Source of the DNA: Phycomyces nitens
Taxonomy: Eukaryota; Mucoromycota; Mucoromycetes; Mucorales; Phycomycetaceae
Assembly: GCA_022702545.1 (NCBI GenBank)
Contig: JAHRBC010000003.1
Coordinates: 4,402,001 to 4,466,000 of the forward strand
DNA length: 64,000 nt
Direction: 5' to 3'
The notes under the pieces are model-generated. The model made no database searches and was not told the DNA's origin. It saw only the letters and a program-made list of their open reading frames with translations. Below, in pieces: positions 4,099 through 61,084 of the stretch (within the stretch, counting starts at the first letter, position 1; each line of letters opens with the position of its first letter). The position numbers were made by a program, and so were the translations under genes.

Positions 4099-7000
4099 TT
4101 AGAGGGCAGCAAATGCCACGGAGACCTGCTCTTTCAATTCAGTCCGATTGTACATAATGTGTGCCAGAGAATTGAGATCAAGAGTGTCCAAAAGACGGAT
4201 AGTCACCCTGGCAGCAAACTTTGTACGTGTTTCCTATCAGATTATTTGTTTGTGAGACTGGGGGAATTATAGAGGGCTGTGCAAGAGTGCTTACCTTTAC
4301 CAAGGGGAAAAGCTTATCGCCCAACAGTGCCTTGCTTTCTATGAGTTTTTTGCCTTCCAAAGACTTTAACAATTTTTCAACTTCATCACTTTCTTCATGG
4401 ATAACAGAAACTCGCTTTGGTGTGGCTTCTGGTGGGGCAACGATTGGAATAGCCTTTGAAACACGACGAGGTGGGAATACAATTCCAGAAGGTACGTGTG
4501 TAGGCATGGGAACAACAAAAGGACCCGGAATAGAGGATTCGATTGGGAGACTGCTTTTTGGTTGCCAAAGAGACAAATGTCAGCTTAGAGATGGATAGAT
4601 GTGAATTACTTACGCATAGCCTTCCTCTTCCTCATCATCGCAAAAGGCCTCGATTGATTCTATTGCCAGTCCAATCTTAAGTTTCAAGAAATCTTGATTA
4701 AACAAGCACAGCATGCGTTCTTTGGATTTAAGGGTCAACAGGAGATCAACAATGTCAGGCACAAATCTGCCAAAATCGCCACAACGATTGACAGCGTTTG
4801 TTAATCGCTGTCGTCGGATATTTGGGCTCGTTTCTGTCATGACCGAGCTGATCGAGTCTGTTGATGATCTGCGTCTAATGCTCTGTCTGGATGTAGGATG
4901 GTAAGATGTATGCTGGACATTAAGACTAGATGCCATATTGTTGTACGAAGGTCCATTGCTTCCTCCCGAGTTTGGAGAGGGTGGGAACTGTGGTGAATAA
5001 CGGAGGTTGGGGTGGTTCACATGGAGGTCCACAGCCGAGCCCTATTTAAGTTATGTCAGTATGATGCGATAAAGAGGGATAAAGTGTCAAATAAGCAAAA
5101 CAGAAGGAGGGAGGAAAAGGGAGTGTAGGGGAGTCTTGCCTTGCGCTGGGGGTGGTGAATGGGAGGCGATTGCTTCTGGCCGATGGACAAATCATTGAGG
5201 TTCATGGCCAGAGTATCGGCGTACTCTATAGTCTCGGGAACAGACAAGTCTAAGAGTAGAGTACATGAGGACATGATAATATTTTTGCGTTTTGTGCAAG
5301 ATCCACTTACTGCGATTCCTAGGCATGATATTCATGTCATTGGAAACCTTTTCATGCGAGAAGATTGGTGCCTCTCCAGAGCGCGTTCCTCTTCCGCCAT
5401 AGCCAATAGACGACTGGGGCGAGATGTTAAGCCCATTGGAGTTATTGAAAGGAGGAGAGTAGCCATTTGCACGCTGATTTTGGTGGTGCTGTGGTTGATA
5501 CGATTGCTGTTGCTGTTGCTGTATCTTTTGGTGCTGTATTTGATGCTGCTGCTGCTGCTGCTGTTGTTGTTGTTGTTGTTGTTGTTGCTGTTGTTGCTGT
5601 TGGTGGTGGTTTTGTTGTTGTTGTTGTTGTTGTTGACGTCCCTTTTTGGGCTCATGGTATGCCACAACCAATTGTTTACCACGGAACATTGCGCCATTCA
5701 TATCATTAAGAGCAGCTGTAGCTTCTTCAGGCTTTCCGTAACTAACGAAACCATAGCCCTTTGATATTCCTGTGATAGGGTTGCTCATCACCCTGGCAGA
5801 TACTATCTTTCCAAATCTGGAAAATAACGGCTTGAGGTCCTCGCTGGTGGTAGAGCCATCGAGATTCTTGATGTAAAGGTTGGTAAAATCAACCATATGG
5901 GACTCTGTCTTGTCTCCCTCGGGCATGGTGTGTTGTTGAGAGAACTAGAGTAGGGTTTTCAGTACAAAAAAAAGCTTAATAAAACCAAGAGAGCGGGGTA
6001 AATTACCTCTGTCTTTGGAGTGTATGCGGACTGACCCAAGGAAGAAATACTTGTGGTAACACTACTAAAAGAGATGAAAAAGATGAGTTTGATGACTTTG
6101 TCTAAAATATTCAACCCCTTTTTCATTCCACAAAAGAAAAGGGAGCACGGACACAGAGATAAAGAATAAGGAAAAATAAAGAAGAATAAACCATTTTTCA
6201 TATATATATAAAGAAAGAATCCGGTATGGGCAAAAGAGAGAAAGAGAGAGAGAATAGAGGATGAATCTGTGGGTGGTCTTAATTTCAACCCCTTTTACTC
6301 TCCTCGACCCTGTTAGAATTCACTTGAAAGAAAGGTAGAGACCAAGGGCTCCCTAACTTTGAACACAATACTTACAGTGTATGACCAGAAAGCATTTTTC
6401 CGTTCTATTTCAACATATGTTAGAGAATGTAACAAGATCCCCAAGACTCCTTACCAATTCATGCTGTGCCTGATCAGCATCGTTCTGGGAGAAATAGAGG
6501 ACACAGGCTGTGTTTGCGAGGCCTGGCATTTCTATATAAATTTGACACATATTTATCGGTCCGTATGGGCGGAAGATGTCATAGAGCACAGTGTCGGCAG
6601 TATGGGGCGGTAGGTTCTTGACGGTGATGAGGTTGGCCTTGGGTATCGGTTCATTTGAAGGGTCGTTGTTGATACGCAATTGAAGCTTTTCTCCGTTTGT
6701 AAAAGTGAATTTATTGTAGAGTGTGTAGGCCTTGTCGGCTAAAGAAATATATGAATATATGTTAAAAAAAAATAAAAAAATAAAAAAAAAATAAAGTGTA
6801 AAGATTGACATGTCAAAGATATTTATATTTCTTTATCCTCTAGCATTCCTATTCTTTTTGCCTTGACTTACCGTATTTAGGGTGGACAAAACGCAAATAG
6901 CCATTGCCGTGTTCACGGTTGATATGCATACTAAATCAAGTGTTTGTGAGCTGGGGTCTTTAATATAGCTTATCTATTGGATATTGATTGATATTTACTC

Positions 7001-20186: not shown

Positions 20187-21006
20187 CCTATGCTTGACTG
20201 CTTCAACACGCGTGAACAACAAACAGGGTTGGGAGCTATTTGGCCTTGGTGGTAATTTGGTTCATTTAAAATCGCGTCACAAAATAGAAGGTCGAGAAGC
20301 ATGGTCAAGCCAGAATTTGCAACTGCTGTTCTTTCTATAAGCTGCCTAACTCCGCCTGGATACCTGCCTAATCCCTGTCCTGATCCGTGGGCCAAGGGAG
20401 TGAGAAGGAAGAATAGAAAATACTTCTTTAACCTTTGGGCAATGGCGATTTACAACAGTACCACATTAGCTGTCACACTCAGTGCACTGCCAGCTATTCA
20501 TTTAACACTCTCCTCTCTCAGTCTTGTGACACCTCAGTCCAACATTTCACACACTCTAGCAAAACAATTCTGGCTATTGAATAGATAGGCAGATTTTGTC
20601 GAATTGCAGTTCAATTTGTGTAGAGAGCTCAAAGGGATAATGTTCTGGGTATAGCTTATCGACGGTTTATTCTAAACAGAAGATCTATATTGGTTTTTAA
20701 AAGAATGAGGGCACTTTTGGACATTTAAACCCCCAAAATAAAGTATATATATATTTTTTATGACCATTCTACTTGGGTTTTATCACAAGGATCTATAAAT
20801 AGCATGTTTCCCTACTGCTTGTAATCCATGTTGTCCTGACAATGGTTGAGGCTTATGATTGGGGCTTGGTAAGCATCTTGATCAAGACTTGTGAGAAGCA
20901 ACCAATCCAGAAGCTATAAGAGATCAATGGAATGCCTACCTGTGGTTTTAGTTTTATAATTCCTATATTCACACAGTTGTATACACGTGCATATTGATAA
21001 ATAGAA
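20187..21006. other. Intergenic: HSF promoter and flank of the palindrome
   Basis: About 820 bp upstream of the HSF-type gene, ending at the palindrome. It has AT-rich tracts and no convincing gene. A short open frame at 20301-20588 looks like noise. Confidence 0.45.
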
Positions 21007-21979
21007 TACAGTCCAGCTGGTGGATATTGTTGGTTACAAAAAATGAAATTGGCTGTTAATAAAAAATACAGTTGTCGAAAGACAAGAATAAGTAACTTTA
21101 TTGGCGACTATATTTTTCATTGGATCAAATAAATAAATAAATAAATAACTATAATTGATAATAGATAATCCCATCACAATAGTCAAATAATAAAATATTC
21201 ACTAATAGACATTTGTCGTGCAGTCAATGCGGTTTTACATTGACATTGGGCCAATCTATATGTATGAATGAATTTGATCTTTCGTTAAAGTTACGTTTGT
21301 AGCATACTATTTGTAAGCTTATATTCATGGCTCTACATAATTCAATATCGTTTCGGTAGTAAATAATAGGCACTTTATTCTATTTTACCTAAAATAAAGG
21401 GCTCAATTCACAATCTCGGTAATTCTACTGATTTTTGTTTTTATAATTTTTTATTTTCTGTGATCTGTATCGCAGATTCTTTGCTTACTACACTCCTTAG
21501 GCAACCGACTAGCATTTTATAGGCGCATGTCTATTGAAACTGAGGATGATACATTATGGTTATGGGCACTCATCAATTGTCATCTTCTGTTATCTGCTCC
21601 TACTCAAAGTTTAATAATAGAGGATGCTTGTCTTGGAGCAGCCAACTTTCTTACAGAAAACAGTTTGACAACCATTATTTTCACCTCTTTTTGTATCTTT
21701 TTAGAATGGTATAATTGTTGTCAGAAAAAAAAAATCTACACTACACTGAGTGTTAAAAAAGCTTCGCAACTTTTTATAGTCCGAACATTCTCTCAAATTA
21801 CAAAGATCTTCTTTTTCTTAATCAACATCTTTTATAACACAATAAAAAATTCAAAACTACCAGCATGCCACCTAACTCTACCTCTACAAACTAAAGTATT
21901 ACTGAAAATATAACTTATGAAATTATTGTGCATGAAAGCATTGTTTATGGTGCCAAGAAATGTGACTGCAAAAAAGTTG

Positions 21980-22645
21980 GATGTTGTCAATTACGTGGTT
22001 CTGCGAGTACTTAAGCATTACAGAGTCTGGATCATATGAGACACTCATGACCACAAACCATCTAAAGAAGCAGGATAAAAGAGACATGAGGGAAATTCTG
22101 CGTAAGATTAAGAATAATCCAACACAGCCCATGACATTCATGCGAAAGACTGTTGGCACTCCTACATGGACAAACATATTTAGATTTCATCGCAGCCATG
22201 GCATATATCCACGTAAAATGCTAAAAAAAAGAGTCTATAATTTCCAAGAAAAACTAACAAAAACGATTGGTATAGGCGAATGCTCATCTTGTTTGGAGTG
22301 CTAATGACTGGAACTCCATCATTTAGTTTGATGAGAAACGATGGACGCTGAAAAGTTCTTTGAACAGACAAAACTGGTCTCCTCTCAATAGTGATATCCA
22401 CAACCATGAAGTTTGGATGTGGCTCTATCATGGTTTGGGGATGCTTTTGCAGCATGGGTGTCAAAGAACTAAAGTTTATTTCTTGCAAAATGAACTTCAA
22501 GAAGTATATCGACACCTTGGAAGAAGGATATCTTTCCTACCATCAGAAGAGCCCCAATCCTCTTCTGGTAGAGCAGGACGAATCGTGGTATGGCAACAAT
22601 ATATGGGTCCCGCTTATCGATAGCTTATATGACAATGTTGATTGA
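21980..22645 (+). pseudogene. Degenerate Tc1/mariner transposase, left copy
   Basis: Broken frames together resemble a Tc1/mariner DDE transposase. There is a helix-turn-helix-like segment (REILRKIKNNPTQPMTFMRK) near 22090-22150. Next comes FDEKRW near 22330, corresponding to the first catalytic Asp block. The stretch SIMVWGCFCSMGVKELKFI (about 22425-22480) is the family hallmark, followed by KKYIDTLEEGYLSY. Several in-frame stops and frame changes separate these parts, and the last DDE block is not recognisable, so it cannot encode an active enzyme. Confidence 0.75.
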
Positions 22646-22731
22646 ATAAGCTTCGTTGGGTATGTTTAGAATCAAGTAAACCACCAACTCAAATAAACAT
22701 TGATACTTTTCTGAACGTTCGTATAGGGATG

Positions 22732-23240
22732 GCCCACAAAGTACTTCTAGTCGCAAAAGAAAGCGCATGAATCAAGACAGTTCCGAGAGAAGAAAAACAG
22801 GATCGAAGCCTGATATGTCGATTCGTCTTGTTTCCGGTGGGGGGAAACCGTTGGAGTTTGGTGCATGTGAGGCCGCCGCTTATTATGAGGGGCATTCTAG
22901 CAAAAAGTACCAGTATGAATCGACAATTAAGCTTCCGAAAATGTTAAAAGATATGTTATTTGACTTGTGCGAATACGTTGATTGGGATGCGGAGAAGATT
23001 GAGAAGATTGGAGTTGAAGGGTGTATCCAAAGTGGTAAGTGCTTGAAAAATCACCTTTATTTCATTACTGATTATTAGAGCTAGCCTTGGTCATTGAGTT
23101 TCTTACCATGACCCACCCAAAAGGATATATATGTCGTTTAACTCGATCGAAGAGTTTTGAAGTTGGCTGTAATGTCAATACTTTTCCAAAAACGTTGGAA
23201 ATACTGGCAATGTCGTTGGCCATGAAGGTTAGAAAAATCA
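22732..23240 (+). CDS. Mucoromycota-type repeat-associated protein fragment, left copy
   Basis: An open frame with the core GGGKPLEFGACEAAAYYEG, then IKLPKMLKDMLFDLCEYVDW. A GTAAGT..TTATTAG intron at about 23035-23079 joins it to LALVIEFLTMTHPKGYICRLTRSKSFEV. From memory this matches a multicopy family of hypothetical proteins in Mucorales, often near transposons, of unknown function; that recall could not be checked. The N-terminal domain is missing or lies in an unrecognised upstream exon (an acceptor TATAG precedes base 22729). The frame appears intact across the intron to a stop near 23240. It may be a captured gene fragment. Confidence 0.5.
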
Positions 23241-24225
23241 ACTAGAGGTACCAACAAGCACACAAGATATACTGACTTTAGTTTTTCCCATAGTTTCGTG
23301 TCGAAAGTTGTGTAAAATTAATTACACATTCAACTTTTGACATAAGTTCAATAGAACACCGGCCCTCTCCCACTATGACCGAATCTATGCCAACGCCATA
23401 ATACTTTTATAACACCTTGCAACATTATTCTTTTATGCTTAAATCTACATATGCCAATAAATGTCTATTATATATTACAACATAAAGAAATTCTCATCGG
23501 CAGAAGCAGCTAAACAAAATTTGTTATGGCCATATTCGACAATGATCTAGATAAACCACTAAAATTTCGTAAAATATTCAATTTTTTCTTGAAGTATCAT
23601 GAATTAGTATCTTATCTATAGAATTGGGCAAATAGAAGACAGTGGTGCATTGAATAAAAGTTACAAGCGGCTCACAATCCAAAAGAGTGTTTTCCCTGTC
23701 TACAACTGCCGCTCGCATTTAAAATTGAAATACAAAGATGTTTGGCGACTATCTACTTTATGAATTTCAGCGACATCTGTGCGCTACACTTTAATGAAGA
23801 AAGTCATGATATTTTCTTGAACCTTTCATAGCATTAAGTTTATGAACTCAGAGAACGTGGTCTAGTCGAATGTTGGAGTGTAGCCAACTTTAATCCTGGG
23901 TAAGCCGGTAGATTCTGCTAGTTAACGATAATAGTGCAAACGATATACTTGTCTATAGCTGTTTCGAGATCCAATGTCTAGGTTATGATATAATGTTAGT
24001 CCGCTAGGACAGCATCCGTTAAACGAAGTCTAGCGTTATAGGAAGCAAATTTCCTAATGATGCTCACAAAAAGCACCCTTAGTGGAGCTAGTGCCTTGAC
24101 GGCATCTATTCTTAGTCAATACATACTTATATATACCTTCACAGGATATAATGTCACGCCCTCAACAACATCAGAGACATGCTCAGGTTTTACTGATCCA
24201 ATGTTTTACTATAATTGTAGTAATA

Positions 24226-24625
24226 CAGTGGCTCCGGTACCAATTTGCGCTTTTATAAAATTCCAATTTTCGTTTTTTTATTGGCCCAATTTTCGTTTTT
24301 GTTCAATTCAATTGTCGTTTTTGTTTGGCCCAATTTTCGTTTTGTACCAAACTCAAATTACACATTTGTTTTAAATAACGTATTTTTTGTATATATGGAA
24401 GCTATTTGTGGAAGTTTTTATGCAATTATGAGTGATGTTATACAGTAGCTTGATAGAAAGACTATTTAATAAACCTCTACATATACAAAAAGCATGTTTT
24501 TAAAACAAATGCGTAATTTGAGTTTGGTACAAAACGACAATTGAATTGAGCAAAAACGAAAATTGGGCCAATAAAAAACGAAAATTGGAATTTTATAAAA
24601 GCGCAAATTGGTACCGGAGCCACTG
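24226..24625. mobile_element. 400-bp TIR element at the palindrome centre (MITE-like, TA target)
   Basis: It begins CAGTGGCTCCGGTACC and ends with the reverse complement, each next to TA (24224-24225 and 24626-24627). The inverted repeats cover about 150-170 bp on each side and contain repeated CCAATTTTCG motifs. The unpaired middle is about 80 bp (24398-24475). The left repeat has an extra block of about 20 bp (near 24320-24340) absent from the right one. It has no coding capacity. Termini and target fit a Tc1/mariner-related miniature element. Confidence 0.75.
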
Positions 24626-25611
24626 TATTACTACAATTATAGTAAAACATTGGATCAGTAAAACCTGAGCATGTCTCTGATGTTGTTGAGGGCGTGACAT
24701 TATATCCTGTGAAGGTATATATAAGTATGTATTGACTAAGAATAGATGCCGTCAAGGCACTAGCTCCACTAAGGGTGCTTTTTGTGAGCATCATTAGGAA
24801 ATTTGCTTCCTATAACGCTAGACTTCGTTTAACGGATGCTGTCCTAGCGGACTAACATTATATCATAACCTAGACATTGGATCTCGAAACAGCTATAGAC
24901 AAGTATATCGTTTGCACTATTATCGTTAACTAGCAGAATCTACCGGCTTACCCAGGATTAAAGTTGGCTACACTCCAACATTCGACTAGACCACGTTCTC
25001 TGAGTTCATAAACTTAATGCTATGAAAGGTTCAAGAAAATATCATGACTTTCTTCATTAAAGTGTAGCGCACAGATGTCGCTGAAATTCATAAAGTAGAT
25101 AGTCGCCAAACATCTTTGTATTTCAATTTTAAATGCGAGCGGCAGTTGTAGACAGGGAAAACACTCTTTTGGATTGTGAGCCGTTTGTAACTTTTATTCA
25201 ATGCACCACTGTCTTCTATTTGCCCAATTCTATAGATAAGATACTAATTCATGATACTTCAAGAAAAATTGAATATTTTACGAAATTTTAGTGGTTTATC
25301 TAGATCATTGTCGAATATGGCCATAACAAATTTTGTTTAGCTGCTTCTGCCGATGAGAATTTCTTTATGTTGTAATATATAATAGACATTTATTGGCATA
25401 TGTAGATTTAAGCATAAAAGAATAATGTTGCAAGGTGTTATAAAAGTATTATGGCGTTGGCATAGATTCGGTCATAGTGGGAGAGGGCCGGTGTTCTATT
25501 GAACTTATGTCAAAAGTTGAATGTGTAATTAATTTTACACAACTTTCGACACGAAACTATGGGAAAAACTAAAGTCAGTATATCTTGTGTGCTTGTTGGT
25601 ACCTCTAGTTG

Positions 25612-26118
25612 ATTTTTCTAACCTTCATGGCCAACGACATTGCCAGTATTTCCAACGTTTTTGGAAAAGTATTGACATTACAGCCAACTTCAAAACTCTT
25701 CGATCGAGTTAAACGACATATATATCCTTTTGGGTGGGTCATGGTAAGAAACTCAATGACCAAGGCTAGCTCTAATAATCAGTAATGAAATAAAGGTGAT
25801 TTTTCAAGCACTTACCACTTTGGATACACCCTTCAACTCCAATCTTCTCAATCTTCTCCGCATCCCAATCAACGTATTCGCACAAGTCAAATAACATATC
25901 TTTTAACATTTTCGGAAGCTTAATTGTCGATTCATACTGGTACTTTTTGCTAGAATGCCCCTCATAATAAGCGGCGGCCTCACATGCACCAAACTCCAAC
26001 GGTTTCCCCCCACCGGAAACAAGACGAATCGACATATCAGGCTTCGATCCTGTTTTTCTTCTCTCGGAACTGTCTTGATTCATGCGCTTTCTTTTGCGAC
26101 TAGAAGTACTTTGTGGGC
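25612..26118 (-). CDS. Mucoromycota-type repeat-associated protein fragment, right copy
   Basis: Mirror copy of the gene at 22732-23240, with the same first exon (residues read identically from 26083) and the same intron at about 25771-25815. No break has accumulated in either copy. Function unknown; see the left copy. Confidence 0.5.
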
Positions 26119-26204
26119 CATCCCTATACGAACGTTCAGAAAAGTATCAATGTTTATTTGAGTTGGTGGTTTACTTGATTCTAAACATACCCAACGAAGC
26201 TTAT

Positions 26205-26870
26205 TCAATCAACATTGTCATATAAGCTATCGATAAGCGGGACCCATATATTGTTGCCATACCACGATTCGTCCTGCTCTACCAGAAGAGGATTGGGGCT
26301 CTTCTGATGGTAGGAAAGATATCCTTCTTCCAAGGTGTCGATATACTTCTTGAAGTTCATTTTGCAAGAAATAAACTTTAGTTCTTTGACACCCATGCTG
26401 CAAAAGCATCCCCAAACCATGATAGAGCCACATCCAAACTTCATGGTTGTGGATATCACTATTGAGAGGAGACCAGTTTTGTCTGTTCAAAGAACTTTTC
26501 AGCGTCCATCGTTTCTCATCAAACTAAATGATGGAGTTCCAGTCATTAGCACTCCAAACAAGATGAGCATTCGCCTATACCAATCGTTTTTGTTAGTTTT
26601 TCTTGGAAATTATAGACTCTTTTTTAGCATTTTACGTGGATATATGCCATGGCTGCGATGAAATCTAAATATGTTTGTCCATGTAGGAGTGCCAACAGTC
26701 TTTCGCATGAATGTCATGGGCTGTGTTGGATTATTCTTAATCTTACGCAGAATTTCCCTCATGTCTCTTTTATCCTGCTTCTTTAGATGGTTTGTGGTCA
26801 TGAGTGTCTCATATGATCCAGACTCTGTAATGCTTAAGTACTCGCAGAACCACGTAATTGACAACATCCA
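26205..26870 (-). pseudogene. Degenerate Tc1/mariner transposase, right copy
   Basis: Mirror copy of 21980-22645 with the same stops, so the decay predates the inverted duplication. One A-run is two bases shorter here, which changes one short frame but does not restore the gene. Confidence 0.75.
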
Positions 26871-27842
26871 ACTTTTTTGCAGTCACATTTCTTGGCACCA
26901 TAAACAATGCTTTCATGCACAATAATTTCATAAGTTATATTTTCAGTAATACTTTAGTTTGTAGAGGTAGAGTTAGGTGGCATGCTGGTAGTTTTGAATT
27001 TTTTATTGTGTTATAAAAGATGTTGATTAAGAAAAAGAAGATCTTTGTAATTTGAGAGAATGTTCGGACTATAAAAAGTTGCGAAGCTTTTTTAACACTC
27101 AGTGTAGTGTAGATTTTTTTTTTCTGACAACAATTATACCATTCTAAAAAGATACAAAAAGAGGTGAAAATAATGGTTGTCAAACTGTTTTCTGTAAGAA
27201 AGTTGGCTGCTCCAAGACAAGCATCCTCTATTATTAAACTTTGAGTAGGAGCAGATAACAGAAGATGACAATTGATGAGTGCCCATAACCATAATGTATC
27301 ATCCTCAGTTTCAATAGACATGCGCCTATAAAATGCTAGTCGGTTGCCTAAGGAGTGTAGTAAGCAAAGAATCTGCGATACAGATCACAGAAAATAAAAA
27401 ATTATAAAAACAAAAATCAGTAGAATTACCGAGATTGTGAATTGAGCCCTTTATTTTAGGTAAAATAGAATAAAGTGCCTATTATTTACTACCGAAACGA
27501 TATTGAATTATGTAGAGCCATGAATATAAGCTTACAAATAGTATGCTACAAACGTAACTTTAACGAAAGATCAAATTCATTCATACATATAGATTGGCCC
27601 AATGTCAATGTAAAACCGCATTGACTGCACGACAAATGTCTATTAGTGAATATTTTATTATTTGACTATTGTGATGGGATTATCTATTATCAATTATAGT
27701 TATTTATTTATTTATTTATTTGATCCAATGAAAAATATAGTCGCCAATAAAGTTACTTATTCTTGTCTTTCGACAACTGTATTTTTTATTAACAGCCAAT
27801 TTCATTTTTTGTAACCAACAATATCCACCAGCTGGACTGTAT

Positions 27843-31439: not shown

Positions 31440-34400
31440 ATGACCCAACTAACACAGAACACTACCGGGTAAAAAAGAGAAAAAGAGAGATAAGCGAGAA
31501 TAGTGAAAAAAAGAAGCAACAAAAAACCTCCTTTTTACAAATAATTATAATAAAATAAGTCTTATTCACTCATGCGTTCTTGCGCAGGCCATTTCGAACC
31601 CTCTTTGATGCGATTGAACGAAGCGATGGGTTTTATTCACAGCAAGATGCAGCCCGTGTCAGTGATGATTCTCTTCAGACACTCTTGGCTGAAAGGACGA
31701 CTGATCTTTCTCTTGGTCTTGACTATTTCACTCCACCATCAGACCAATCTCAATCTAAACTTGCCAGCAGCACAACTAGCATCGTCATTGATAAAAATAC
31801 CATCAAATTAGATGGATCTGCAAAAGATGCGATTACAAAACTTTCGCGCGATCTTCAATTGAATCAACTTCAGGCTGCAGTAATTTGGGACGTCTGTGCA
31901 TCGAACGACAAAGACGACCAGTATGACCTTGTCTCTCGAGCAACTTACTTTTACTATCAAGAGCGCCTTGCCATACTCGAGGTCGTCAGCTCATTGCTAC
32001 GGATATCACACGATGATGACCACCAATGGGTATCTACAGCACGCGAAACAATCGATGGGCTGTTGGAAAAGGGATATGTTGAACGAATTTTGAGTCAACT
32101 AGAACATCTCATGAAAAAATCTCCTCCTACGCTGATTGCACCAGATCTCAAGCAATGGGCATTCCAGAACATTAGCGAACAAAAGGCAATACTCGACATA
32201 TTCTATCTCATTCATCTCAATAGACCCTGCAACTCTCAGCTTCTAGTACAAATGGTAGACCTATGCAAATCAACCCTGTTTGGAATGAAATTGGACTTTG
32301 ATTATGCATTCGACGAAGAAGCAAAGGGAATTCAAAAGCAAGTATACGGCCAGCTCTTGCTCAATGCAGTCCAACTTCTCAACCTCAATGTCTCTCTGGA
32401 GCCTTTATCTGCCTTGCACCACAAACGCACACAAGCACAGATTCTACCAAACTGCCCCGATAAAATCATTGAAATCAATGAAAAGGTGGAATCCATGCGA
32501 GACATTTCTTTGGCTTCTCCATTTTTATTAGGATGGAGCTGCTTCCTTCATAAAATGAAAGTATGGATCAATAGAGAACGCTGCCATGCCGACTACGAAT
32601 CTTTAAAAAGTATCTTGGAACAAGACGAGCCTTCACTTGAGAAGACATTGGCAACAAGAGCACTTGGACTAGGTGCTTTGAATTATATTTCCAGTCTCCT
32701 GGAAAGCTATCTACTCAAGGAAGATTCAAATCAAAATGGTTATCGTACCACCATCAGGACAATGCTCAATAATATGACAGCAACAATCCGCCCCTATGAA
32801 TTATCACCAACCGATTACGACCTTTTGGTAGATGCAACCTGCGAATTGTATAATGGACAGACCGAGTTGTGTGAAATGTTTTGGAAATCAGAGGCTCACT
32901 CTGATGGCCATTCTCTCTTGAACACAGCCATATTTAGATTTCCTTTCATGTCCACACCATTGCTTCGCTTACTCTCTAGTCTTACGGGTGCTAGAGAAGA
33001 TGAAGAACGGTCTAATGCTTTGGCTCAAAACGTCTTTGACACACTTCTTGGACTGACTACTCTCACAAGCCATGTAAATGATACCGTAGTAATTGGAGAA
33101 GATGCCCGTGGTGTATATCCCCTCGCTCCAATCCAGATCACCAAAACCCATGGCCCGGTCTCTGGAATTCAGATTGACGCTGAAACCGAAGGAATATATG
33201 TCTCTGACCGAAAATTGGATAGAATTGTTGTGTGGAAAAAAGCATATTCTGGTTGGCATTTGGTGTTGAATGTTCTTTTTGGATTTATGGAGTGTACTCA
33301 AAAGACGACCGAACCCATCGACCACATCCTGGAGTTAATGCAGAGCCTTTTATCGCACGATAACATATTGAAACAAATGGCCAACCACGCAGAGGATATT
33401 GTGGGATCTCAATTGTTGCCAACAGAGAAGCGTTCACTACTGGCAACCGTGTTTATTGGACTATTGGATGTTTGTACTGCAATGGAAAATCCATCTCCTT
33501 TAGCTCTTACACGTATTGTACGTTGCATGACCTCACTTTTGCCTCACCATCGCCAAATTTTGTGGAAAAATCTCGGTACTTCGCCCAGTCTGGCCATCAC
33601 AGCCTCTCCGAATTCCTCGCTATTAGAAGGACCACCTAGCCTTCAGAAAATTATTCGTTCAGTTGAATGCCGGCTTGGCCGATACAGTTTACTACTTTCT
33701 ACTCTGGATCTCATTCTTTCTCTTATTAATGACATCCAGGCTGACTGGTGGGAGACCAAAGACGCCGGAATATCAAGAAAAGAAAAGGCAGACATCCTCA
33801 AATCCTACATATCATATTTATTATTCGACGTCTTACCCAACCATGGTGGCTGGCGATATTTCTTATTATCTGAGCGATTCGAGATTGGCTCAAAAATCTA
33901 CTGGATACTAATCTACATATTTCTCTACTTTAAGAACTTGGACACCCACATTAATGAACTGAGGAAAAACCTCTATCATTATTTCTTATACGATGCCAGT
34001 CCGTTCTGTTTGGCAGCCTTGGTGGAATGCATGACCGAAGGACCTGATATGGCAGCCAAGCTTCTAGAGACCAAGCAGTACACATCTGGAGACAAGGCAG
34101 AACAAATGGTCGAAGCTGGACTTATCCTTACACGATTGTTACTCACTTTCCGTCTTGAAGATATTTCTCGTCATCCCAAAGGAAGTGTGCTTGAGCAACT
34201 CTTGTTGGAAAGAACCGGGAATACGAAAACAAAGACACTGTTACAAATTGCACAAGCAATCAACTATACTTTTTCAGATACGATCCCAGCCGAAGCGATA
34301 ACCATCCTAAGGCTACTTGCCCAGACAACAGCCGGGTGGACACCAGTACCCATGTTTGCAGAACAACTTGGAGACAGAGATCAGATCCATGATATCTTGT

Positions 34401-36943
34401 GCTCGTTCCTAGAAGTCGCTGAAAATGCCTCTCGTGATCCTGAACTCTTGGTCGCTATTTGGCAAATGCTAACTGTCTTGCTAAAGACCCAACCTAGTCT
34501 GGCTATCTTGTTTTTGGATTGTGGCGATTCGGTAATGCCTAGTCCCAAATCTGCTGTTAAGCAGCAAAAGGCTGTAGAAACAGCTTCGGCTGTCAAGGCA
34601 GCTATCGATATATTCCAAGACTGGCAGGCATGGGCCACCGAAGCTCCGGCATTATTGTCATCTGTATTACGCTTCCTGGCCACATTTTGGGAGACAGCGT
34701 TTGATCACTATAGCCTTGTTCAACGAACACGAAGTGACAATGCGTTGTGGCTAGGAATATCGGAAATCTTGCTGAATCCTAATGAACCTGTTACGGCGAC
34801 CAACGACGACCTTTTGTGGGAGGATGTCAAAACATCTCATCACGACGATATTCAGCGTGGATGCTGTAGCTCACTCGACAAAGCATTTGCTCTCCAAATC
34901 CTTACACTTGAAGTACACTTGACGGCCCATGCAGATAATCGCAACAATATGACATTGGCCGAACGATTGCCTGCAGGTGTCAAGACTTTATTGGTGAAGA
35001 TGAGCGAACCTAACAAACTGGCCTGGATGCGCGATACATTTATTAGAAACAACTTTGATCCATCTCTTGCACCGATTGTTCACAAATCTGCCCAGCATCT
35101 TGTGGATCTTTTGGGTGCTACACATCCAGAAGCTCTGTTGAGTCAGAGACAACGCCTGTCGAGCGATCCTCTAGAAGACACATATTATGGTGATGAGTTC
35201 TTGTATGATATTGAATTGGCATATAAACGGCTAGAACTCATCAAGGACCAAATGGATGCTCGTTACAACATCACTCCTGACATATTGGTAACGCCAAAGG
35301 TATTGGCTGTACGACAAGTTCAAAAGGCTGCTGATCAAGTCCTAGGTGATCTTTGCCGTGCCAACCACAACTATTCAAAGGTTGATTCTGATATGATCCT
35401 TCTGGAAGCCTTTAAGAATTTTATTGATACCACTTCCCGCCAAGTTCCTGGTCTAATTTGGGCCAACAGAATAGAGACCTCGCTTTTTGACTTTATTGTG
35501 GATGCTCTTACTCGTATGAAAGATTTGGTGAACCATGATGACAGCATTTCCAACAAGACTGCCGGTATTTTTGCTGTCCTTGTCCGCAACACAATGGAAG
35601 ACTGGGTTTGCTCAAAGACAGCAAAACCTGTGTATGTGGAGAAGACACTAGAGCTTGTTTCAGAAATGTGTATCTTGGTGAACAAGCCTTTCAAGGACAC
35701 AACTCGACACCTATTATTTGAGACTATTCTTATTGCCCTACGATCTGTCCGCAACCGAGACCTTACCAGACAACCACCTCGAATCAACGACTCCCTTTCT
35801 CTCCTTCTAGGTATCATCTGTCCTTTATTCGCTAGCACCTCTCAACTTGCCTTGAATGATTCTGAAAAGTCAGAAGAGGCGATCAAACAAAGCACGGTAT
35901 TGACATTCTTGTTGCGAGAGTTGATTCGACCTGCCAATCTCGTCTCTAATCTCTGGCTGCCTATATTGGAAAGACATTCGACATTTTCTTCATTAATCAA
36001 ATTCATTAACCAAGCTTCTGGTTTGGTGGTCTCTGAAGTAGATGGAAAATCCAAGGATACTGATTATACTTTGCATATATCACCCTGTGCAGATAACCTG
36101 TTTGCTCTATTGACAGCTCTGTCGATGCAGCCCCAGGCAACTAGACTCTTGATCCAACATGGCGTCTTTACTCTCTTGCGCGAGAATCCTCTCAGTAAAC
36201 AGTTGCAGGACGGTACTATGGAAACGTTTATTGAATTCGGTACCCAAAAGGAATACAACCCCGTACATCATATCTGGTGCCAGATGCTGCGTGTAATGGC
36301 AAACATCTTGCGCAACTGTCCTGTGGATCCTGTCGTTCAACAAACTTTAATGCTGCTCCAGGATTATGGCGGTAGATTGGAAACAGCCTTTTTTACTGCC
36401 AATGGAGTATATGATACCACTACAGACTCACTCTCGGAGCCTATTTTGATCGAAATCGAACTTCTCTGTACGCTTATTGAGTATCTATCCAAGAACCTTG
36501 ACATGTCACTAGTAAATGGACAAGATATCTTTGTTGCATTCAAGAACGCGGCCCTTCCTTTACTGCGACTATACTTGGATCTCTTTACTCACCCAAAGCA
36601 ATTTGAACGTATCCTTTCAAAAGATGATTCCAAAAAAGCCACCGAAATCCGCATGGCTCGAATTTCACGGACAATTCTTTTGGCAATGGCAATGCTTGCA
36701 AGAGGAGAAGAATTCTCGACTGACCCTTCGACTCAGTGGCCTATATATGAATCTACCCAACCACCTACCATCGAGGGCCTTACGAATGCCATGACGGTTG
36801 GAATTTTCCTTGTCGACCAGTGGAAGAATCAACAAGGTAAAGATGTCTGGAGTAAGGAAAGTAAGGCTACCAGTCTCCCGGTTGTATTTGCCGAATTATT
36901 CAGGGTCGTACAACGCTACTATCGCCTCCTGAGTCTAACCTGA
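31440..36943 (+). CDS. NUP188: Nucleoporin Nup188 (Nup188/Nup205 family)
   Basis: A large inner-ring scaffold nucleoporin of about 1,800 residues built of alpha-helical solenoid repeats. The large exon 31588-36943 is open throughout but lacks a nearby ATG. Splicing a 29-nt first exon (31440-31468, MTQLTQNTT) through GTAAAA..GCGCAG restores an ATG in phase and yields GPFRTLFDAIERSDG. YYQERLAILEVVSSLLR lies near the N-terminus. The SH3-like insertion typical of Nup188 is visible (GPVSGIQIDAETEGIYVSD ... IVVWKKAYSGWHLVL, about 33150-33270). This is why I prefer Nup188 to Nup205. The first exon is inference from phase and splice sites. Confidence 0.85.
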
Positions 36944-58638: not shown

Positions 58639-60843
58639 ATGAGCACTCTTGACTCACCAGCAAAGCAGTTGGGCAAGAAAAAAAAGGTCAAGACCGAGAG
58701 TACTACTCCACTCAACGCTGCCGCCCTGGCAAATGCTAACAAGCGACTCAAGATCAGTCATGCATGCGATGAATGCAGGAAACGCAAAGTGTGCAACTTG
58801 GCGAGATGGCCGTTGTACGTTCGTTCGTTTGGCTGATGGATATTGTAGGTCAAGTGCGATGGAATATCGCCCTGTGGACGTTGTCGCAAGTCAACGATCG
58901 AGTGTGTCTTTGCAAAGGCACCACCCAAGCGAGGTCCTCCTAAACAATACATCGAGAATTTAGAGGCGCGTCTCCAGTTGGTAGAAAAGGCTCTCCAGTC
59001 CATGGGAGACTCTGAACGGCAGATATTTGAAGATGCTCTGGCAATGGAAACCCAAAAAATGAAGCTGAGCCAAGACGAGGATACGGATGGAGGTGAGTGG
59101 TGTGTTTGGTGATCAACCATGACTGACGAGATATGTTTGCAAGCATTCTATTCGATGGATATTCCTATAGAAGATCACTCTAGCCCTGTTGCTCATATTA
59201 ATCATCAACACCAGATGCAACAAATACAGCAGCCGATGCTATTACACTCGCAGACAGTAGTGGATAACTTTGGGAATGTGGTTGTAGAAGTGCCCTCTCA
59301 TTATATGGATGTCTATTTTCAGCGGGTACACACGTACACTCCCATGATTTACAAGCCTCTGTTCAGACAGCAGATCCTCACACATTCTGATCCACAATCC
59401 CAGCTATTAAGATATGCCATTGCCGCAGTATCTGCCCGATGGATAGAAGTGACAACCAACGAAAACCCTCCAGGCTGGATGTTCTATAGACAGGCTTTGC
59501 GTCTGCTGGACACCTGTGCAACCACCCCGCGACTTTCAACCATACAGGCCATGGTACTCATGCTAAAATACCAGGAGCAGTATCGTAAGGCCCGGGACGT
59601 GTGTCGCCCCGACCTCATTCTCGGAACAGCCGTTCAAATGTCCAACGATCTCCGCCTATCTGACATCGACAACTCCTTTCAGCCACTTGCCGAAAATGAA
59701 GCCAAAAAAAGGACATTTTGGATGGTGTTCATGTACGACCTCATGTACAGGTACGTTGCATGGAACAACTTGCTACGATTATATGAGCTAATGCTATCAA
59801 AGTATCGAGGGAGGGAGGGAATCGTGCTATGGAAGAATGAATTGCACTACGGATCTTCCCATGGCAACCAAGGAAGAAGATCCTGTAGAAAAAGAGGAAG
59901 TGGACTACTATATCCTCTTTATTGAACTAGGAAAAATATTGTCTGGCGTCTATCAAGCCACACGTAACGCCCAGCTACCTACCCCACCTGAAGTCTATCA
60001 ATTCCACAACAGACTCACCCAGTTCCTTTACCTTTTGCCTCCTTCCCTCATGTATCCAATGCCAACCTACCCAGCTCCCAAGCAACCTATCAACAATATC
60101 CAAACAGGCTTTCTACACATGATTTACCATTTTAGTATCTTGCTACTTCACCAACCCTTTACACAAACAGATGAGTACAATTTAAAATCGTACGACCAAC
60201 GCAAACTCTGCGCCGTATCGGCCTCCGCCATCACCCGGATTGTGGAGACTATGTTGGAAGACCATGGTGTCGATGTGTTTATTGACCCCATCAGAGGTGT
60301 CCAACACACTATCCACTGTGTTGCCATGGCTGCCACAACCCACCGGTTTGAGATTGCTTCTGCCAAAGATTCGGTGGCACTCAACGTAGCTAGGGAATGC
60401 TACAAGAGCTCTTTCCAAATCATTAGCCGGCTCACTTCAGAGTCACCTGCAGTCGACTCTCTGCCAACCCAAGTCGTCACTCTCGATGCTTCTACTCATT
60501 CCCCTCCTTCTCCTATACCATCTTCTCCCCACAGGCATACCAACACTCTTCAGCCCTACCCAGACTTCCCTGCCCTACGTCATAACCGCGCTGTTTCAAG
60601 CAACCTTCATGGATCATACTCTCAGGAAGATCTTCGCGCGGCCCGGCAACTTCATAGCACAAAACCCCCTCATTCACAGTGGCCACGACGGAGACTAAAC
60701 AAATCTACTTCAATGTACTTTCAACCATCTGGTCAAGGATTCCTTTTTCAGCCAGATCAAAATCAATTGACATTTTACCAACAGCAACAGCACCAAATAC
60801 AGCAGCAGCAGCAACAGATACAGCAGCAACAGCAACAGCAGCA

Positions 60844-60890
<47 letters not shown>

Positions 60891-61084
60891 TACAGCAACA
60901 GCAGATAATGCAAGCTTTTGATCTGAATATTTCAGACCCTTTAAAATCCGCTACCAATAACGCTACGCCTATCATTCAACTAAATGGCGGCACAAATCCT
61001 CTCGTTGATCCTTCTGTATTCCAACAGCTTGCTGTAACTGACCAGTACAATTCCTGGTCTTCCATTCTCCCAGAGAAGCATTAA
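58639..61084 (+). CDS. Zn2Cys6 transcription factor (fungal-specific TF domain, polyQ)
   Basis: A Gal4-type regulator. The binuclear zinc cluster HACDECRKRKVKCDGISPCG crosses the first intron, whose removal restores all six Cys (the last is in RCRKSTIEC). The linker and coiled-coil-like QYIENLEARLQLVEKALQ follow. After a second intron (GTGAGT..TGCAAG) comes the fungal-specific middle homology domain: YFQRVHTYTPMIYKPLF, then FWMVFMYDLMYRYS joined at a third intron to IEGGRESCYGRMNC. The C-terminus has a polyglutamine tract (60778-60908). The overall pattern is close to XlnR-like regulators. The ATG at 58639 gives a Lys-rich N-terminus. Confidence 0.9.
60778..60908 (+). repeat. CAG/CAA polyglutamine tract
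   Basis: Trinucleotide repeat encoding Gln in the C-terminal third of the Zn2Cys6 factor, with interspersed Ile codons. Probably length-polymorphic. Confidence 0.9.

Follow-up and report, generated by a model that had tools for sequence, protein, structure and literature searches.

A palindrome of 6831 bp in the genome of Phycomyces nitens is probably a fold-back element, non-autonomous and with ends of the Tc1/mariner type, that arose when an inverted repeat guided the copying of one arm. The palindrome lies in a window of 64,000 nucleotides, by which we mean the whole stretch of DNA analyzed (positions 4402001-4466000 of contig C5, which is 8.05 Mb long in a genome of 49 Mb and 11 contigs). 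When the window was compared with itself using BLAST, one long inverted match was obtained, that of 21006-27842 against itself, confirming that the palindrome is real. We aligned the two arms without the central insert (21009-24223 versus 24628-27839) and found one mismatch and three gap columns in 3215 columns. The sole substitution is G/A at 23667/25184, and the gaps are two bases in an A-run at 22223 and one base in a T-run at 23582. This identity is far beyond chance and rules out a chance palindrome. The arms account for 3215 and 3212 of the 6831 bp, so that inverted repeats make up most of the element, as they do in foldback elements. A preliminary description of this DNA had placed the arms at 21009-24225 and 24626-27839, had called them nearly identical and had bounded them by TA-CAGTCC...GGACTG-TA; the self-comparison and the arm alignment agree with its arms, and the bounds are present in the sequence. 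The structure agrees with each of the two labels that it offered, giant fold-back element and recent inverted duplication, the second of which explains the first. It had also proposed that the same genome be searched for other copies of an arm. No second copy, and with it no dispersed family, was found in the assembly at the sensitivity of the search tools, with only the best candidates scored; a search with 162 bp of the end overlooked a 43-bp similarity that a pattern search detected.

The outer ends of the palindrome carry the marks of a transposon. A TA stands at both of them, as at the target sites of Tc1/mariner elements (Table 1); TA is its own reverse complement and, in a palindrome, the outer TA could equally belong to the arms. 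Allowing up to three mismatches, the first 23 bases of the end were found at three places in the genome, namely both palindrome ends and C4:3571738 (locus L058), and the reversed-pattern control gave 0 matches. The L058 end resembles the palindrome end over 43 bp at 88%, beginning at TA, and the flanks beyond are unrelated. A DDE_3 gene, which encodes a Tc1/mariner-type transposase, lies about 540 bp inside the L058 end, so that the palindrome shares its end with a transposase-encoding member. Judged by this match, TA-CAGTCC marks true transposon ends of the Tc1/mariner type at the outer boundaries, and here the preliminary description, which had seen Tc1/mariner termini with a TA on each side, is borne out. 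A looser search with 17 bases gave 16 matches versus 4 for the control. Three of the matching loci were compared further. At two of them (L062 and L063), the resemblance continues by eye for about 35 bases, and L062 lies about 2.6 kb from a DDE_3 frame; these two share about 13 bases outside TACAGT, and TACAGT may not be the exact element end there. At L064 only the first 17 or so bases resemble the end, and we gave it no weight.

When two pieces of the L058 transposase were compared with one arm by tblastn, the best E value was 3, which gives no sign of autonomy. Because the arm shows no L058-like transposase, only a truncated Tc1-like fragment that belongs to another family, a large Tc1/mariner element with its own transposase was ruled out. 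A reading of the palindrome as simply a Tc1/mariner element of unusual size is thus unsupported, since neither a transposase that goes with the ends was seen in the arm nor a second copy found in the genome.

At the axis of the palindrome we found a miniature inverted-repeat transposable element (MITE), which was absent from the preliminary description and which explains the place and manner of folding. The stretch 24224-24627 matches a dispersed family separate from that of the ends, with seven other full-length copies. All eight full copies stand between TAs, measure 404-445 bp including both TAs and have imperfect terminal repeats; the family is therefore short, with terminal inverted repeats, a TA target and several copies, as MITEs are. 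The central MITE is about 90% identical to the other full copies, and 92-95% identical over parts to some of them. As single-stranded DNA, its folding energy was calculated at -150.5 kcal/mol, versus a mean of -39.4 for 100 shuffled sequences (z = -26). The outermost stretch of the MITE is mirrored, and the inner part is not.

The two repeats of this MITE record a copying event. Both lack the same 20 bases and have the same C changed, and the strings that mark the deletion and the changed C were present in 2 of 2 palindrome repeats and in 0 of the 14 repeats of the seven other full copies. These variants were counted by a string test; a column-wise comparison placed the deletion differently in two rows. 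Farther in, 22 bases of the left repeat are missing from the right one, an asymmetry also seen in L043 and L044. From these differences, it looks as though copying from one MITE repeat into the other extended to about 24538-24567, with the recipient repeat keeping its own lineage beyond that point. Such a pattern would be the expected trace of fold-back copying across a hairpin, and inverted-repeat-guided duplication is characterized by just such an axial inverted repeat, one half of which has received a tract from the other. Among 13 fetched 9-kb MITE loci, we found no MITE-centred inverted repeat extending appreciably past the MITE, the one at L053 running about 50 bp past the matched part; these loci do not support the idea that MITE insertions generally produce palindromes. 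Other inverted repeats, off-centre, were observed at L045, L050, L054 and L055, and two of those in L045 flank the MITE.

The near-identical arms, the transposon ends, the MITE at the axis and the private variants common to both of its repeats would be accounted for by the following route. The ancestor would have been an element with ordinary short terminal repeats at a TA, which had acquired a truncated Tc1-like element, a gene fragment and the 400-bp MITE with its inverted-repeat ends. A break to one side of the MITE would have exposed single strands, one MITE repeat would have folded onto the other, and the mismatched end would have been trimmed. Synthesis from the MITE hairpin would then have proceeded outward along the whole arm, yielding an inverted copy of it, and halted at the element end, where the match between the new terminal repeat and the other one would have let repair rejoin the flank. 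The product would be end-arm-MITE-arm'-end between TAs. It is the break, the order of the steps and which arm is the original that we infer here. The whole unit may later have moved with the help of a transposase supplied in trans, and the palindrome may be transcribed into a long hairpin RNA.

The contents of the arms suggest that young arms were built from old material. Besides the palindrome itself, the genome matches of the arm were essentially limited to 21742-22541, which holds the truncated Tc1-like element, named F. Complete copies of F are about 1355 bp long with terminal repeats of about 40 bp; two full copies encode DDE_3, one of them with a match to a paired-box/helix-turn-helix (PAX/HTH) domain as well. 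The F fragment is at most 89% identical to other copies over at least 500 bp. The exons joined to it match Rhizopus delemar proteins at 57-75% when compared one stretch at a time, and contain a stop near the 3' end. No genome match was found for the arm stretches outside F, the centre and the 43-bp end, and a Pfam search with six arm frames gave nothing above the cut-off. By these identity values the arms were pieced together from old parts, and the structure is a young, fold-back one in that its arms are nearly identical though built from such parts. At 22407-23260 of the window, a Tc1-like transposase frame runs into the exons of the Mucorales protein, and this fusion is annotated as a single 183-aa protein, CLU79DRAFT_522470, in another P. 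nitens assembly.

We also analyzed inverted transposase pairs elsewhere in the genome, whose presence counts in favor of the fold-back origin. A search with a piece of the L058 transposase gave 71 matches, several of which were inverted neighbours of equal score. The DDE_3 family as a whole gave at least 151 matches; 150 of 610 candidates were scored, and these 150 rows were used for finding pairs. Among these best 150 of the 610 candidates, 23 pairs lay within 20 kb. At least 10 inverted pairs had scores within 0.5 bits, eight of them exactly equal, versus one direct pair within 0.5 bits and none equal, and the unequal-score pairs among the matches listed were seven inverted and five direct. 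In a kinase control, the 147 matches listed gave 9 inverted and 39 direct pairs, 48 in all, and in no pair were the scores within 0.5 bits of each other. Three of the DDE_3 pairs were compared at the letter level, and the remaining pairs rest on scores and orientation. The scores of the pair C5:1411238/1418645 differ by 0.3 bits, and C4:6071267/6079393 is probably not a true pair, different stretches of the profile having been matched.

The ends of the pair on C6 are identical at 380 of 380 bases and have a sharp boundary at A-TA. This end was found six times, as three inverted pairs at C1, C4 and C6 that span 8.3, 18.8 and 7.3 kb, respectively, and no solo copy was found in the genome search. 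At neither C6 nor C1 do the middle 400 bases form an inverted repeat, and the two middles do not resemble one another; these elements are therefore not closed palindromes but have inverted ends that enclose different centres. All three look like composite, cargo-carrying elements of the Tc1/mariner type. A second palindrome was found at C8:3355909-3357447 (L067), with two inverted DDE_3 frames of equal score. Its middle 240 bases are 96.7% self-complementary, the mismatches lying in a short loop, and what appear to be two element ends (TACAGGGTTCAGT) face each other about 14 bases apart. By scores and orientation, convergent inverted DDE_3 pairs of equal score, 2.7-8.7 kb apart, were also observed at C5:5441410/5445162, C1:5929495/5938152, C5:430937/434031 and C4:8139528/8142226. 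We put forward only tentatively the wider idea that fold-back copying in P. nitens repeatedly makes giant inverted-repeat units out of Tc1/mariner-type elements, that the palindromes in the window and at C8 and the three elements of 7-19 kb are stages of one process, and that such units move and carry cargo.

The host sequence around the palindrome differs between its two sides. Its left neighbour is a frame with an HSF-type DNA-binding domain, and the neighbours on the right include a frame with an eIF-4B match below the cut-off. A Nup188-like frame at 31559-36943 is identical to P. nitens CLU79DRAFT_843423 at 1784 of 1784 aligned residues, which assigns the window to this member of the Mucorales. 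An Rfam search over the window gave no match. At 5504-5635 and 60777-60913, repeats lie inside reading frames with long glutamine runs; these were the only self-matches of the window besides the palindrome at an E value of 1e-10 or better.

Table 1. Features of the palindrome in the window and of the large inverted-end elements elsewhere in the genome
Feature	Position	Strand	Basis
Left target-site duplication TA (or last TA of arm)	21007..21008		Sequence
Left arm, 3215 bp	21009..24223	+	Alignment to right arm: 1 mismatch, 3 gap columns
Left terminal inverted repeat, Tc1/mariner-type family	21009..21047	+	43 bp at 88% to L058 end; L062, L063 similar by eye
Truncated Tc1-like element F (first ~820 of ~1355 bp), left copy	21742..22541	+	72-89% to 15 other loci, L003-L017
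Decayed exons of Mucorales protein joined to F fragment, left copy	22520..23260	+	57-75% to Rhizopus delemar proteins
TA, left end of central MITE	24224..24225		Comparison of MITE copies
Central MITE, 400 bp, CAGTGGCTCCGG...CCGGAGCCACTG; palindrome axis within	24226..24625	+	7 other full copies, hairpin z = -26
Putative interval where copied tract ends in MITE right repeat	24538..24567		Private changes outside; inside follows L043/L044 right repeats
TA, right end of central MITE	24626..24627		Comparison of MITE copies
Right arm, 3212 bp	24628..27839	-	Alignment to left arm
Decayed Mucorales gene exons, right copy	25590..26330	-	Mirror of left copy
Truncated Tc1-like element F, right copy	26309..27106	-	Mirror of left copy
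Right terminal inverted repeat	27801..27839	-	Pattern search and comparison with L058 end
Right target-site duplication TA	27840..27841		Sequence
Large inverted-end elements (L060, L061, L065, L066)	C6:6507521-6514796, C1:6806615-6814919, C4:2175567-2194363		DDE_3 frame (367-462 aa) in each near-identical end

Several observations weigh against the origin by fold-back copying that we favor. The presumed lost half of the ancestral element was not seen in this one P. nitens assembly. No matching far end of the L058 element was found within about 3.5 kb, and the normal form of the family is thus undefined. At L045 (C5:385400-394400, MITE at 4292-4720), the two terminal repeats of the MITE are nearly identical and have several private columns in common, and L043 and L044 have one common private column each between their repeats. 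Since L045 was homogenized without a MITE-centred palindrome, homogenized repeats alone are no proof of a large event. A control search with F (39 rows) gave no inverted neighbours except the window palindrome, suggesting that inverted pairs are not general to all DDE_3-bearing elements here; the kinase control slightly strengthens the wider claim about inverted pairs, whereas the F control slightly weakens it. Finally, the far junction might rest instead on 6-7 bp common to the MITE end and the element end.

This last point leads to an explanation that we consider doubtful, in which host DNA was plainly duplicated in inverted orientation at the MITE, the far junction was formed by chance microhomology, ACTGTA(T), at the outer end of the arm and the MITE end, and the transposon-like ends are incidental or a solo relic. 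It would agree with the arm having no other copy apart from the F stretch and the MITE, with the host gene fragment in the arm and with the TACAGT common to arm end and MITE end. But the boundary falls exactly at the 43-bp sequence that also starts, at TA, the transposase-bearing L058, which weighs against a random stop, as that would rarely land there; it was because a third copy of the end was found beside a transposase that we reduced the reading from microhomology alone to a rival. It is less probable still that the palindrome arose at another site and reached its present one by a jump of the complete fold-back element, with transposase supplied in trans. The correctly oriented ends with TA on both sides and the existence of another family with long inverted ends at three loci are in keeping with such a jump, but neither a second copy nor a donor was found in the assembly, and the anatomy would be nearly that left by fold-back copying, differing only in the site where the copying took place.

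We also asked whether the palindrome could be an assembly or read artefact, a fold-back (hairpin) read having been built into the assembly, and regard this as very unlikely. Near-identical arms are what such a read would give, two of the three arm differences are homopolymer lengths, and the palindrome at C8 provides a second centre with a short loop. Yet the palindrome has distinct flanks on its two sides inside an 8.05-Mb contig, boundaries at TA, a MITE at its axis and one substitution between its arms. Equal-score inverted neighbours occurred among the DDE_3 matches and not among the 147 kinase matches listed, and in the family with inverted ends at three loci, the two loci sampled do not have the same centre. 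In the other P. nitens assembly, moreover, the cluster of CLU79DRAFT_522470 consists of two member sequences on one contig, which we infer to be the two arms. That contig is 945,984 bp long, the same size as the contig of the Nup188-like gene in that assembly, and over the stretches in common CLU79DRAFT_522470 shows a single residue difference from the two arms, H in place of Y.

Because the arms are fresh, with hardly a mutation, the MITE at the axis can be identified and the end of the copied tract can be placed within about 30 bp, the route from an ordinary to a fold-back element becomes testable here. P. nitens offers further inverted pairs for comparison and may suit the study of how fold-back elements originate; the palindrome gains interest because the event is so fresh and because inverted pairs recur in this genome. 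The fungal group to which P. nitens belongs is known for RNA interference, and a 3.2-kb inverted repeat with a fragment of a multicopy Tc1-like family is a candidate natural source of hairpin RNA.

Among the matches listed in a literature search, no title dealt with such palindromes in Phycomyces, which is no proof of absence. The palindrome is like members of the Tc1/mariner (IS630-Tc1-mariner) superfamily in its TA target, its CAGT-type ends and the DDE_3 gene beside the matching L058 end, and unlike them in its arm without an L058-like transposase, its 6.8-kb length and its 3.2-kb inverted repeats. Foldback (FB)-type elements resemble it in consisting almost entirely of inverted repeat but occur as repeated families, whereas the palindrome was found as a single copy. 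An experimental parallel for hairpin priming is provided by foldback inversions in yeast, which involve resection, folding of single-stranded DNA into a hairpin where an inverted repeat lies, trimming of flaps and synthesis primed by the hairpin, as in the route proposed above (PMC7467729). The yeast cases described there are gross chromosomal rearrangements resolved by secondary events, whereas the palindrome is closed, interstitial and returns to a unique flank (PMC7467729). The proposed mechanism would also have a published precedent in another transposon superfamily, that of Galileo, a P-superfamily element of Drosophila. In the sections of the Galileo reports drawn on here, terminal inverted repeats (TIRs) grow by recruiting internal sequence and inserted transposable elements: in the repair model proposed by the authors, one TIR is repaired from another, the tract runs into internal sequence to give TIR1-F1-F1-TIR2, and inserted transposable elements join both TIRs (PMC3573991, PMC4168063). 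The Galileo TIRs described there, from which TIR growth is inferred, are about 0.3-1.6 kb long and 95-100% alike (PMC3573991, PMC4168063); the palindrome differs from them in its 3.2-kb repeats with one substitution, its Tc1/mariner-type ends and the MITE at its axis.

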